In this document: one piece after another, positions 60,560 to 63,959 of the stretch
Layout of the letters: each line of letters opens with the position of its first letter
Position numbering within the stretch: position 1 is the first letter of the stretch
From: Sphingomonas suaedae
GTDB lineage: Bacteria; Pseudomonadota; Alphaproteobacteria; Sphingomonadales; Sphingomonadaceae
Direction of reading: 5' to 3'
NCBI RefSeq assembly: GCF_007833215.1
Contig: NZ_CP042239.1
Coordinates: forward strand, 1,116,001-1,180,000
DNA length: 64,000 bases
Position numbers and translations under genes: made by a program
The notes under the pieces: model-generated
The model's database searches: none
The model's input: the letters and a program-made list of their open reading frames with translations, nothing else
What the model was told of the DNA's origin: nothing

Positions 60560-60670
60560 CTAGCCCTGGGTCCCGCCGATCACGAGGACGGCGGCGGCGG
60601 CACTGGCCACGACCCCACCCCATACGATCGGCGCGAACCACCAGGGTGGCCGCCTCTTTTTCTGATTCAC
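60560..60670 (-). CDS. 36-residue single-helix membrane micro-ORF
   Basis: GTG start with GGGAG seven bases upstream. The product, MNQKKRRPPWWFAPIVWGGV then an Ala/Val-rich helix, is basic then hydrophobic, a small anchored peptide. No family was recognised. It follows the 129-residue unknown gene by 44 bases on the same strand. Confidence 0.5.
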   Translation of the reverse strand: MNQKKRRPPWWFAPIVWGGVVASAAAAVLVIGGTQG

Positions 60671-60714
60671 GACAAAACTCCCGATGACGCCGCGGTCGGC
60701 GAAAGGGCGGATGG

Positions 60715-61104
60715 TCAGATCAGCGGGGGGCCGCGCGGGCTGCCGTTGAGGACGGGGTGCGGGCGGAGGGGAGGTATAGCGCGCGCTGCACCGACCGGCG
60801 CGCGATCGGTGTCGACCGATGGCGCCGGAGCGGCGACAAGGGCAGGCGTTGCACGATCGCTTGCCCCGGCGGCGGGTCCGTCATCGCGACGAGTCGGCTC
60901 GGCCAGGATGCGCGGCGCAGGGCGGATCGGCTTGAGCGCGACGACCGTCGTCGCAGGGTTGAACGCCGATCCATAAGCGATGGTGCGCGGCAGGCCGCTG
61001 CTAAGCAGCGAGGATGCCAGAGCGACAAGCAGCGCGATCCACAGCGCCATTGCCCGAACCGGTCGGGCGGGATTGGAGCCGAGGGGGATCGCACGGGCTG
61101 TCAC
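60715..61104 (-). CDS. Membrane-anchored Pro/Ala-rich hypothetical protein
   Basis: 129 residues. A single helix (about residues 19-38, MALWIALLVALASSLLSSGL) is followed by a Pro/Ala/Arg-rich tail facing probably the periplasm. No family was recognised. Starts with GTG and lacks a strong ribosome-binding site. The terminator of trmD-rplS lies just upstream of it. Confidence 0.5.
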   Translation of the reverse strand: MTARAIPLGSNPARPVRAMALWIALLVALASSLLSSGLPRTIAYGSAFNPATTVVALKPIRPAPRILAEPTRRDDGPAAGASDRATPALVAAPAPSVDTDRAPVGAARAIPPLRPHPVLNGSPRGPPLI

Positions 61105-61140
61105 GGCTTCAATCTAGTGCCGCTGGGCGGAGAATCAAAC

Positions 61141-61170
61141 GGGGCGCGGAAGCTTTCGCCTCCGCGCCCC
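61141..61170 (-). terminator. Terminator hairpin of trmD-rplS
   Basis: A 10-base stem (GGGGCGCGGA with TCCGCGCCCC) encloses a 10-base loop 26 bases past the rplS stop on the minus strand, and is followed by GTTTGATTCT. A rho-independent terminator is likely, though the T run is weak. Confidence 0.65.
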
Positions 61171-61195
61171 GCGCATGTTCAAGCCTGCGCGCCGA

Positions 61196-61588
61196 TTACT
61201 CGGCGGCAGCGGTGCCCTTGGCCGGGCGCGGGTCGCGGCGCTCGGCGATACGTGCCGACTTGCCGGTGCGACCGCGCAGATAATAGAGCTTCGCACGACG
61301 CACGACGCCGCGGCGGACGACTTCGATGCTGTCGATGTTCGGCGAATAGAGCGGGAAGACGCGCTCGACGCCCTCGCCGAACGAAATCTTGCGAACGGTG
61401 AAGTTGCTGCCCATGCCCTTGTTGGCACGGGCGATGCAGACGCCTTCATAGTTCTGAACGCGGGTGCGCTCGCCTTCGACGACCTTCACGCCGACCTTGA
61501 CGGTGTCACCCGGACGGAATTCGGGGATTTTCTTGTCGGCCAGGAACTTTTCGACGTTCTCGGCCTCGATCTGCTGGATGAGGTTCAT
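61196..61588 (-). CDS. rplS: 50S ribosomal protein L19
   Basis: 130 residues. [20 protein letters not shown] and [20 protein letters not shown] with [16 protein letters not shown] are L19 signatures. An in-frame ATG two codons upstream (61594) is possible. It lies three bases past the trmD stop, as in most bacteria. Confidence 0.97.
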
Positions 61589-61590
61589 GC

Positions 61591-62319
61591 TCATTCGTCC
61601 TTCTGTCGCCGCGCGCCAGAGGGAGACTGGACCCGAGCGCCCTCATGACGCTCCCAAAGATCCGGCCTCCTTAGCCGTGTATCGGTCTGGGCCTGGTGCG
61701 TTCGCCAGGCCGCGATCCGCGCATGATCCCCCGATCGCAGCACTTCGGGGATCGTGCGCCCTTCCCATTCGACGGGTCGGGTATATTGCGGATATTCGAG
61801 AAGGCCGCTTTCGAAGCTTTCCTCGACTCCGCTGGAAGGCGCGCCCATTACGCCGGGAAGCAGCCGAATGCAAGCGTCGAGCAGCACCAGCGCGCCCATC
61901 TCCCCGCCCGAAAGGACATAGTCGCCGATCGACACTTGTTCGATGGGACGCGCGTCGAACAGCCGCTCGTCGAACCCCTCAAACCGGCCGCACAGGATCG
62001 ACACGCCGGGACCGGCGGCGAGCGCGCGGACGCGCTCCTGCGTCAGCGGCGCACCACGCGGGGTCATCGCCAGCATCGGGCGGTCATAGCCGACGCTGTC
62101 GCAGGCGGCGGCGAGGATGTCGGGCTTGAGCACCATCCCCGCCCCGCCCCCCGCCGGCGTGTCGTCGACGGTACGGTGCTTGTCGGTGGCGAAGTCGCGA
62201 ATCTGGACGGTGTCGAGGCTCCATTTCCGCTCATTCAGCGCGCGTCCGGCGATGGACGCGCCAAGTGGCCCCGGAAACATGTCCGGGTAGAGGGTCAGGA
62301 CGGTGGCGGCGAAGGTCAT
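61591..62319 (-). CDS. trmD: tRNA (guanine-N1)-methyltransferase
   Basis: 242 residues, the SPOUT-class enzyme that makes m1G37 in tRNA and is usually essential. The trefoil-knot motif is [30 protein letters not shown] near the start, [14 protein letters not shown] and [12 protein letters not shown] are also typical. The ATG at 62319 overlaps the vapC stop (ATGA). The usual rpsP-rimM pair is absent upstream, replaced by vapBC. Confidence 0.97.
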
Positions 62320-62699
62320 CGGGTCCAGTTTTCGCACCTGAGGCCGGGGATATCGGCAAAATCGGCTTCGTTGTTGGTGACGAGTATGAGGTTGAGCGAA
62401 AGGGCGTGGGCGGCGATCAGCCGGTCGAAACTGCCACGTTTGAACGGAATTTGCGCATAGGTGCGTGCGGCGTCCCGGTCGAATTCGAGAAGCGGAGCCG
62501 CCTCGTAAAGGGCATCGGCAGCCGCGCGTGCTGCCGAGTTGGCTCCCACTAGGCCGCGTTCCAATTCTGCAAAGACGATGGCTGAAATGCCGACCGTTCC
62601 CACATCCTGCAATGCCAGGCGCTGAGCCGACGGACTGGTGAGATCAGCCAGAATGTAGATGCAGATATTGGCGTCGAGCAGGTAGCGCAGATCAGTCAC
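62316..62699 (-). CDS. vapC: VapC-type PIN-domain toxin
   Basis: 127 residues with the PIN nuclease fold. Acidic metal residues are D9 in [13 protein letters not shown]45/E47 in VFAELERG, D92 in [12 protein letters not shown] and D113 in [10 protein letters not shown]. The substrate RNA is probably a tRNA or rRNA, as in known VapCs. Its start overlaps the vapB end by eight bases, and its stop overlaps the trmD ATG by four. Confidence 0.95.
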
Positions 62700-62964
62700 C
62701 CTTGATCCGCTTCAAACCCCAGTCGAGTTCACGCTCCTCGAAGATGCGATCCTCGGGCGGGATCGGCTTCAACCAGGGAATCTTTCCGGCGAATTTACTG
62801 ATGTCGATCTTCTTCGGTGTCTCGGCGACCGGTTCGACGATGAAATTGCCGCGCTCCTCGCGCACCTTCATTTCCATGCCTTCCTTGATGCCAAGCGCCT
62901 TGGGCAGCCGCAGGGCGACCGAATTGCCCGACTTGAACGTCTTTGCGCGATATTCGTCGCCCAT
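62692..62964 (-). CDS. vapB: VapB-type AbrB-fold antitoxin
   Basis: 90 residues. The N-terminus [20 protein letters not shown] is the AbrB/SpoVT DNA-binding fold, and the C-terminal part (about 50-90; [19 protein letters not shown]) should wrap the toxin. GGGAGG lies five bases before ATG 62964; a GTG one codon upstream exists. It probably represses its own promoter with VapC through the GTATATAC palindromes just upstream. Confidence 0.93.
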
Positions 62965-62975
62965 CACGGCCTCCC

Positions 62976-63016
62976 GTATATACGCGATGTATATACATAG
63001 CCTTCGTTGACTTCAA
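62976..63016 (-). promoter_or_regulatory. vapBC promoter and operator
   Basis: Two copies of the 8-base palindrome GTATATAC lie at 62976-62983 and 62989-62996, 13 bases centre to centre. On the minus strand a -35 TTGAAG (63016-63011) and a -10 TATACA (62993-62988) are 17 bases apart, and the -10 lies in a palindrome. This is the layout of a toxin-antitoxin autoregulated promoter. Binding by VapB-VapC is inferred. Confidence 0.8.
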
Positions 63017-63041
63017 GGAACGAACTCGCCCCCGCCGCGCT

Positions 63042-63959
63042 ATGGCGGTCATGGAAGACTGTATCATCGTCGGCGCGGGGCCGGCCGGGCTGACGGCGGC
63101 GATCTATCTGGCGCGCTATCATTTGTCGATCCGGCTGTTCGACTGCGGGTCGAGCCGCGCGGCGCTGATCCCGCGCACGCACAACCATGCCGGCTATCCC
63201 GAGGGGATCGAGGGGGTCGAGCTGCTGCGGCGGATGCTGGCGCAGGCAGAGAAATATGGCGCGGTGCGCGAGCCGGCCAAGGTGACGCGGATCGAGCCGA
63301 AGGACGAGGGTTTCATCGTCCATGCGGGCGAGCGCAGCTTCCCGGCGCGATCGGTGCTGCTGGCGACGGGCGTGGTCAATCACCGGCCCGAGGGGATTGC
63401 GGATGCGGTGCACGATCCGGCGCTCGCCGCCGGGCTGCTGCGCTATTGCCCGGTGTGCGACGGATATGAGGTCACCGACAAGCGCGTCGGGGTGATCGGC
63501 ACCGGCGATCACGGGATGCGCGAGGCACTGTTCCTGCGCGGCTTTACCCGTGATGTGACGCTGATCGCGCCGGATGTGGAGCATCGGCTGGACGATGCCT
63601 GCGTCGCCAGGCTGGAAGAAGCCGGGATCGCGCGGGTCGACGGGCCGTGCGGCGGCTATGCCATTCAGGGCGACCAGCTGGTGGTGCAGACGGCCGACGG
63701 GCCGCTTGCGTTCGACAGTGTGTACCCGGCGCTGGGATCGCGCATCCGGTCCGATCTGGCGGTCGCGGCGGGCGCGGCGGCGACCGAGGAGGGATGCCTC
63801 GAGGTGGACGATCACCAGCGCACGTCGATCCCCGGGCTGTTCGCTGCGGGGGATGTGGTGCTTGGACTGGACCAGATCAGCAACGCGATGGGTCAGGCCG
63901 GGGTCGCGTCAACGACGATCCGCAACATGCTGAGCGAGCAGCGGGCGATTTGGCGGTAG
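63042..63959 (+). CDS. Thioredoxin reductase-like flavoprotein
   Basis: 305 residues. The FAD motif is [17 protein letters not shown] (11-27) and the redox pair is C136-P-V-C139 in [11 protein letters not shown]. The NADPH motif is changed to [13 protein letters not shown], where GGG would be normal, so the donor could differ. It ends [23 protein letters not shown] 63042 or 63051 are both possible. It is divergent from vapBC across the palindromic promoter. Likely a ferredoxin/thioredoxin reductase relative rather than a second true trxB. Confidence 0.88.

Follow-up and report, generated by a model that had tools for sequence, protein, structure and literature searches.

VapBC modules are common, and the function of chromosomal toxin-antitoxin modules is hard to assign. 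In Escherichia coli, rpsP, rimM, trmD, and rplS follow one another in this order in an operon. Repression by VapBC of its own promoter is known in Shigella (PMC3384007), where two operator sites cover the -10 and -35 regions, and in Haemophilus (PMC3302801). According to a review, the mazEF promoter of Staphylococcus aureus reads into the downstream sigB operon and is required for full sigB activity; mazEF is described there as not autoregulated and as linked to sigB via readthrough of a weak terminator (PMC3920265). Mycobacterium tuberculosis VapC-mt11 is reported to be a tRNase whose in vitro cleavage of Pro, Leu, Arg, and Gln tRNAs falls after GG in their anticodon loops (PMC6459853).

Here, a vapBC pair preceding trmD and rplS in Sphingomonas suaedae was analyzed. 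The window, that is, the whole 64,000-nucleotide stretch of DNA studied, comprises bases 1116001-1180000 of a one-contig, 4.15-Mb genome. Among relatives, the module is kept, swapped, and sometimes deleted at one fixed spot in a ribosomal and tRNA-modification operon, where translation initiation of the essential trmD possibly depends on the toxin gene.

The vapB-vapC-trmD-rplS cluster and its operator

Four intact, contiguous reading frames lie on the minus strand. The first, vapB (62692-62964), encodes a 90-aa MazE/AbrB-type antitoxin (PF04014, 26.5 bits against a cut-off of 24.7) and is preceded by the Shine-Dalgarno sequence GGGAGG (62975-62970). It is followed by vapC (62316-62699), which has a GTG start and encodes a 127-aa PIN-domain protein (PF01850, E 6.4e-17), by trmD (61591-62319), the gene for tRNA (guanine37-N1)-methyltransferase (PF01746 and NCBIfam equivalogs), and by rplS (61196-61594), whose product matches ribosomal protein L19. 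The latter two are single-copy genes, no second copy of TrmD or L19 being present in the 4.15-Mb genome. The overlaps amount to 8 bases for vapB/vapC and to 4 bases (ATGA) for both vapC/trmD and trmD/rplS. A first-pass annotation, made from the letters alone, had already described the minus-strand arrangement, the 8- and 4-base overlaps, and the ATGA in which the vapC stop and trmD start are joined; all were confirmed, and the trmD/rplS overlap adds to them. Its span for the pair, 62316-62967, was correctly located, except that the upper end uses a GTG, while the ATG at 62964 is the likelier vapB start. A terminator between vapC and trmD is impossible because the 4-base overlap leaves no space for one. 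The sole hairpin on the minus strand of 60600-63300 is terminator-like and located 3' of rplS (61139-61172; 15 pairs, 12 of them G-C), although 2 hairpins on both strands of this region against 2.2 expected from shuffles make it weak as a count.

The pair has sequence features of a type II VapBC system: a small antitoxin gene with a DNA-binding N-terminus is upstream of and overlaps the toxin gene, and the predicted toxin is a PIN-domain protein with acidic residues. D9, E45, D92, and D113 of VapC, which we take to be the active site, are kept in 98, 98, 100, and 95% of 59 VapC rows, respectively. The best-matching solved relatives are tRNA(fMet)-specific VapC toxins, with 3TND (E 2.6e-12), presumably the Shigella flexneri VapBC complex, as the best PDB match; against the NCBIfam tRNA-fMet VapC models, VapC reaches 82.7 of 140 and 51.6 of 143 bits and so falls short of the cut-offs for this subfamily. 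No PADLOC anti-phage model was hit by either VapB or VapC (0 families).

A double palindrome, GTATATAC-N5-GTATATAC (62976-62996, minus strand), is situated between vapB and a divergent thioredoxin-reductase-like flavoprotein gene (63042-63959, plus strand; 63042 was taken as its start, with 63051 as the alternative). Its half-sites (62989-62996 and 62976-62983) are self-complementary and 5 bp apart, and the exact sequence occurs once in the 4.15-Mb genome. A putative vapB promoter (62988-63016, minus strand) was read by eye as TTGAAG (63016-63011), a 17-bp spacer, and TATACA (62993-62988), so that the presumed -10 falls inside the palindrome, referred to below as the operator. With at most 2 of 16 mismatches, the operator is found in 57 of 59 genus loci that were not chosen by it (101 of 103 when chosen ones are included), and the spacer is 5 bp in 100 of 103 loci. 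Folding of this strand as DNA gave a z of -2.1 and nothing beyond the palindrome. A palindromic operator is present and conserved at the putative promoter, and VapBC binding to it is predicted. In many Sphingomonas loci the 5' side of the thioredoxin-reductase-like gene and that of vapB have the operator region in common; this divergent gene may be co-regulated by VapBC.

A TTGACG-like -35 element lies exactly 17 bp before the TATATA of the operator, within the last rimM codons, in 24 of the 28 loci in which rimM is adjacent. At least 4 of 6 matches were required, a score that shuffles reach in 9% of cases even with a spacing of 16-18 bp allowed. Where rimM is not adjacent, a -35 in this fixed place is seen in 21 of 75 loci and is absent in 54, including the window. 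The internal promoter that the first-pass annotation had suggested looking for was not found: a consensus scan detected no sigma-70 site on either strand, but since it also missed the presumed vapB promoter, it is uninformative on this point.

Gene order and start signals among relatives

The loci compared comprise the best 80 of at least 584 named loci by TrmD similarity and loci from 59 genomes of the genus (60 relatives were searched, G007 having no match). Together with the window they give 140 loci, 126 of which are distinct after 14 duplicates were dropped, mostly from Sphingomonas. Counting VapC matches above 100 bits at most 1.6 kb upstream of trmD, 64 of the 126 loci carry the toxin gene and 62 lack the pair. 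In 49 of the 64, vapC ends exactly 4 bases into trmD; in the kin-sampled set alone, VapC is present in 26 of 59 loci and the 4-base overlap in 19. A TrmD gene beginning ATG-AC or GTG-AC supplies a stop codon to any frame that reaches that point, and the overlap is therefore evidence of frame and adjacency, not of a separately evolved stop. The same holds for frames that intervene between vapC and trmD, which are only suggestive because a Met-Thr start of TrmD gives a stop at +4: among the 15 loci in which the vapC end is not on the trmD start, 7 have an extra frame ending at the same +4 (L042, L060, L063, L094, L133, L154, and L173), and L070 and L123 have shorter frames that likewise end there. 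The small frame of L060, L063, L094, L133, L154, and L173 appears, by eye, membrane-protein-like.

Several loci deviate in other ways. Two vapC genes are located upstream of trmD in L083, L089, L091, L116, and L167, the outer one belonging to a distant VapC group. In L087 and L187, vapBC lies beyond the divergent flavoprotein gene; trmD of L087 is adjoined by that gene, not by vapC, and has a Shine-Dalgarno sequence. The trmD loci of L039, L043, and L088, labelled Microvirga, Arthrobacter, and Bacillus, fall among Sphingomonas, and these genomes are probably mislabelled.

It had also been pointed out from the sequence that rpsP and rimM, which normally precede trmD, are missing upstream of it. 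In the window genome, both are indeed found at 0.66 Mb on the plus strand, with rimM 0.5 Mb from an otherwise unbroken vapBC-trmD-rplS cluster. This observation is incomplete, since a number of relatives have the order rpsP-rimM-vapBC-trmD-rplS, with the pair between rimM and trmD; the absence of rpsP-rimM is therefore no mark of recent capture. The comparison of gene order within the Sphingomonadaceae that had been proposed shows that the vapBC-trmD order recurs across the family, and a recent capture of trmD by a vapBC was ruled out. Of five pair-less loci with rimM next to trmD, two (L044 and L104) have the genes touching by ATGA. An opposite-strand flavoprotein gene comes to within 800 nt of trmD on its upstream side in 77 of 126 loci, among them 35 of the 49 with the overlap; in 34 of these 49 it lies between rimM and vapB. 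Downstream of rimM in the window genome (L004:7190-11286, genome 0.665-0.669 Mb), there are asparagine-synthase-like and sulfotransferase-like genes, an HPr-kinase-like match (weak, under its cut-off), and a tiny upstream frame, which together look like a lasso-peptide-type cluster in place of trmD.

The arrangement was also approached without the use of trmD, by searching for the operator and its GGAG (GTATATAC N3-7 GTATATACGGAG) with the backward pattern as a control. Within the family, the pattern occurs in 36 of 249 genomes, one copy each, from 22 of 96 genera (control, 0). Within the order, 23 of 296 genomes have it, all from the same family and 8 already among the family-search matches, and the class sample gave 0 of 385 genomes (5 of them of the family) against 1 match of the control. 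These counts are lower bounds because the site of the window itself (GGGAG) escapes the strict pattern. The 51 matching genomes yielded 48 fetched loci, 4 of which had been included before, leaving 44 distinct new loci. All 44 contain vapB and vapC, 40 have trmD in reach of a 3-kb stretch, and 26 have the exact 4-base vapC/trmD overlap. In 20 of them rimM is adjacent, and in 18 of these it ends on the first base of the operator, so that the rimM stop codon has one base in common with the operator. The operator-only search returned vapBC in 44 of 44 and trmD in 40 of 44 loci, from which, together with the gene-order counts above, we conclude that this module belongs to the structure of a ribosomal operon across a family.

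Behind an overlapping vapC, a Shine-Dalgarno 4-mer 4-12 bases 5' of trmD was detected in 1 of 49 loci, and in 0 of the 26 operator-found family loci, versus 16 of 62 pair-less loci (Fisher p 3.8e-4 for the 49 versus the 62 loci, a value that ignores kinship and, the genomes being non-independent, is only indicative). The trmD of the window has no such 4-mer, consistent with the earlier remark that no Shine-Dalgarno is obvious before it. If every in-frame start is admitted, the same rule finds a 4-mer before vapB in 58 of 59 loci. Shuffled upstream bases contain a 4-mer in 17% (overlap loci) and 19% (pair-less loci) of cases; 16 of 62 thus barely exceeds chance, and the contrast comes mainly from depletion behind vapC, not from enrichment elsewhere. 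Part of this depletion may be due to what the conserved vapC tail encodes, which may itself exclude Shine-Dalgarno words. A duplex-energy test, which preceded the 4-mer test and used a 16S tail sequence, gave no group difference (Mann-Whitney p 0.11), shuffled bases scoring equally well. The missing Shine-Dalgarno fits translational coupling of trmD to vapC but is no proof of it. In pair-less loci, CTTGCC before trmD was considered as a -35 element and dropped, since the same letters could be the Shine-Dalgarno sequence of the divergent gene.

Exchange and loss of the pair

On a quick trmD-rplS tree, presence and absence of the pair require at least 28 changes, 20 of them forced by starred branches. 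The toxin gene has a history of its own. Eight loci of the S. paucimobilis group make up one trmD clade, yet their VapC proteins belong to two groups that are far apart (p-AU 5e-15). A single VapC clade of the window, L037, and L056 is likewise rejected (p-AU 4.8e-7); the groups tested were chosen after both trees had been inspected. The divergent gene, vapC, and trmD of the window are 86.6%, 63.0%, and 92.9% identical at the DNA level to those of L056, and identity jumps from 0.57 to 0.97 in adjacent 30-base steps at the vapC-trmD joint, while in L102 and L107, a swapped pair, the final 60 nt of vapC are already alike to the degree of trmD. VapC and trmD histories are thus in conflict, and the trees and identity profiles indicate that VapC alleles are swapped in place. 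The DNA-binding half of VapB has a mean pairwise identity of 61%, versus 35% for the remainder, and VapC one of 50%. In all 11 vapC pairs tried, dN/dS was 0.03-0.17, so VapC is under constraint. A plasmid search gave 1,497 records matching VapC, 3 of them at 60-80% identity and the others lower; no recent plasmid donor was seen, the best among the matches listed being 59.8% identical.

Traces of lost pairs were recognized by eye in 6 of the 62 pair-less loci, which retain vapC-tail bases beside trmD together with operator bits. In L086, L137, L147, and L171, the promoter side is left as far as GTATA, as are approximately the last 20 vapC bases before trmD. L051 has a degenerate operator pair and a longer vapC tail. 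L059 (S. melonis) retains one half-site without mismatch, the region of the vapB start, and a short frame whose end falls on the start of trmD. L131 seems to be a further decayed locus. In the closest kin of the window (L035, L036, and L139; TrmD 95-96% identical), pair and operator are cleanly absent and trmD is kept, with a gap of 44 nt to the divergent gene's start. Because these relatives keep trmD with neither pair nor operator, the gene must be expressible by other means, which speaks against a strict dependence on the pair.

Proposed control of trmD-rplS and relation to known systems

The explanation that we favor, with a probability of roughly 0.64, is that a type II VapBC module was incorporated in the distant past into the Sphingomonadaceae rpsP-rimM-trmD-rplS operon, with seamless joints, a shared repressed promoter, and coupling of trmD. 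The older form would be rpsP-rimM-vapB-vapC-trmD-rplS, in which the rimM stop runs into the operator and vapC ends in the trmD start. Complexes of VapB and VapC probably occupy the two palindromic half-sites across the -10 region and repress the common promoter, as follows by analogy with known VapBC systems, and ribosomes that end vapC translation probably begin trmD by coupling. In most overlap loci of Sphingomonas, rimM and vapB are now held apart by a gene on the other strand, so that the vapB promoter would be the likeliest main source of trmD-rplS mRNA there, the window included. The flanking conserved genes probably provide the homology for toxin-allele exchange and pair loss. For the window genome, transcription of trmD-rplS from the vapB promoter and coupling of trmD translation to vapC are likely on account of anatomy, conservation, and scars. 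The proposal of the first-pass annotation that the pair is wired into the trmD-rplS operon receives partial support, at the level of sequence, from the gapless joints, the operator 5' of vapB, the missing Shine-Dalgarno of trmD, the lack of space for a terminator, and the family-wide conservation, and trmD and rplS may be under the control of the antitoxin.

It could instead be supposed that an ordinary chromosomal vapBC abuts trmD by chance in the window genome only. In its favor are the commonness of such modules and one other VapC match elsewhere in the genome, a weak one of 40% identity. The idea, to which we assign practically no weight, is refuted by the 49 of 126 loci that agree in position, orientation, and overlap and by the recovery of trmD in 40 of 44 new loci by the operator. 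Unlikely, in our estimate, is a constitutive promoter of trmD-rplS in the 3' half of vapC, with the pair as a passenger whose autoregulation matters little. Synonymous variation is lower in the last 28 vapC codons (mean z, -2.32 versus -0.73 elsewhere; p 0.006), a possible sign of an internal promoter or of a start signal, and the pair-less kin still run trmD. However, variation is also low at the LLD motif at the 5' end of vapC, the six scarred loci retain bits of the vapB operator, and the shared vapC tail of L102 and L107 suggests a recombination tract, not a signal, the window and L056 having no such sharing.

Selfish entrenchment, in which the module profits from an operon that cannot be lost and plays no regulatory role, clean removal being hard and re-entry by recombination repeated, is a quite possible account to which we give somewhat less than even odds; it does not exclude the favored explanation, so the odds of the two overlap. 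The many presence/absence changes, VapC alleles at odds with trmD, and the second VapC of five loci would all be expected from it. Entrenchment by itself does not predict that the operator is nearly invariant (57 of 59 genus loci), though autoregulation of the pair alone would.

A stronger version of the regulatory explanation, which we regard as rather doubtful, sees in VapBC a switch dedicated to the operon's trmD-rplS half. Levels of the m1G37 methyltransferase and L19 would be set by the antitoxin:toxin ratio, and degradation of VapB would both cause tRNA to be cut and release TrmD and L19 synthesis, toxin alleles exchanging in place while operator, VapB N-terminus, and joints stay constant. 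If so, one circuit would serve for halting and rebuilding translation. A bolder, speculative addition is that VapC cuts anticodon loops modified by TrmD, whose reading site is G36-G37. The GG cleavage site of VapC-mt11 matches this dinucleotide, and the accessible part of that report mentions no link to a trmD operon (PMC6459853). A connection between VapC and TrmD via m1G37 stays speculative, as cleavage by VapC-mt11 is reported to be independent of tRNA modification (PMC6459853). Whichever explanation applies, sister-species deletions, allele exchanges, and re-wirings offer natural experiments on whether such modules are regulators of essential genes or passengers.

VapBC modules and the trmD operon are each known, and their family-wide fusion with a private operator was not found in the literature searched; no title among those listed, subscription journals being mostly outside the search, describes a toxin-antitoxin pair in a trmD operon. 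The order rpsP-rimM-trmD-rplS is identical to that of the known operon once vapBC is omitted, the present one adding the pair and its own operator between rimM and trmD. The original paper on mazEF-sigB is reportedly that of Donegan and Cheung from 2009. As described in the review cited above, mazEF-sigB is the nearest precedent, with the difference that a terminator is read through there into a sigma-factor gene, whereas here 4-base overlaps leave no space for a terminator (PMC3920265). Like the module described here, Shigella flexneri VapBC has an AbrB-type antitoxin. In the parts of the Shigella report at hand, binding concerns the promoter of the module itself, while our module continues into trmD-rplS (PMC3384007).
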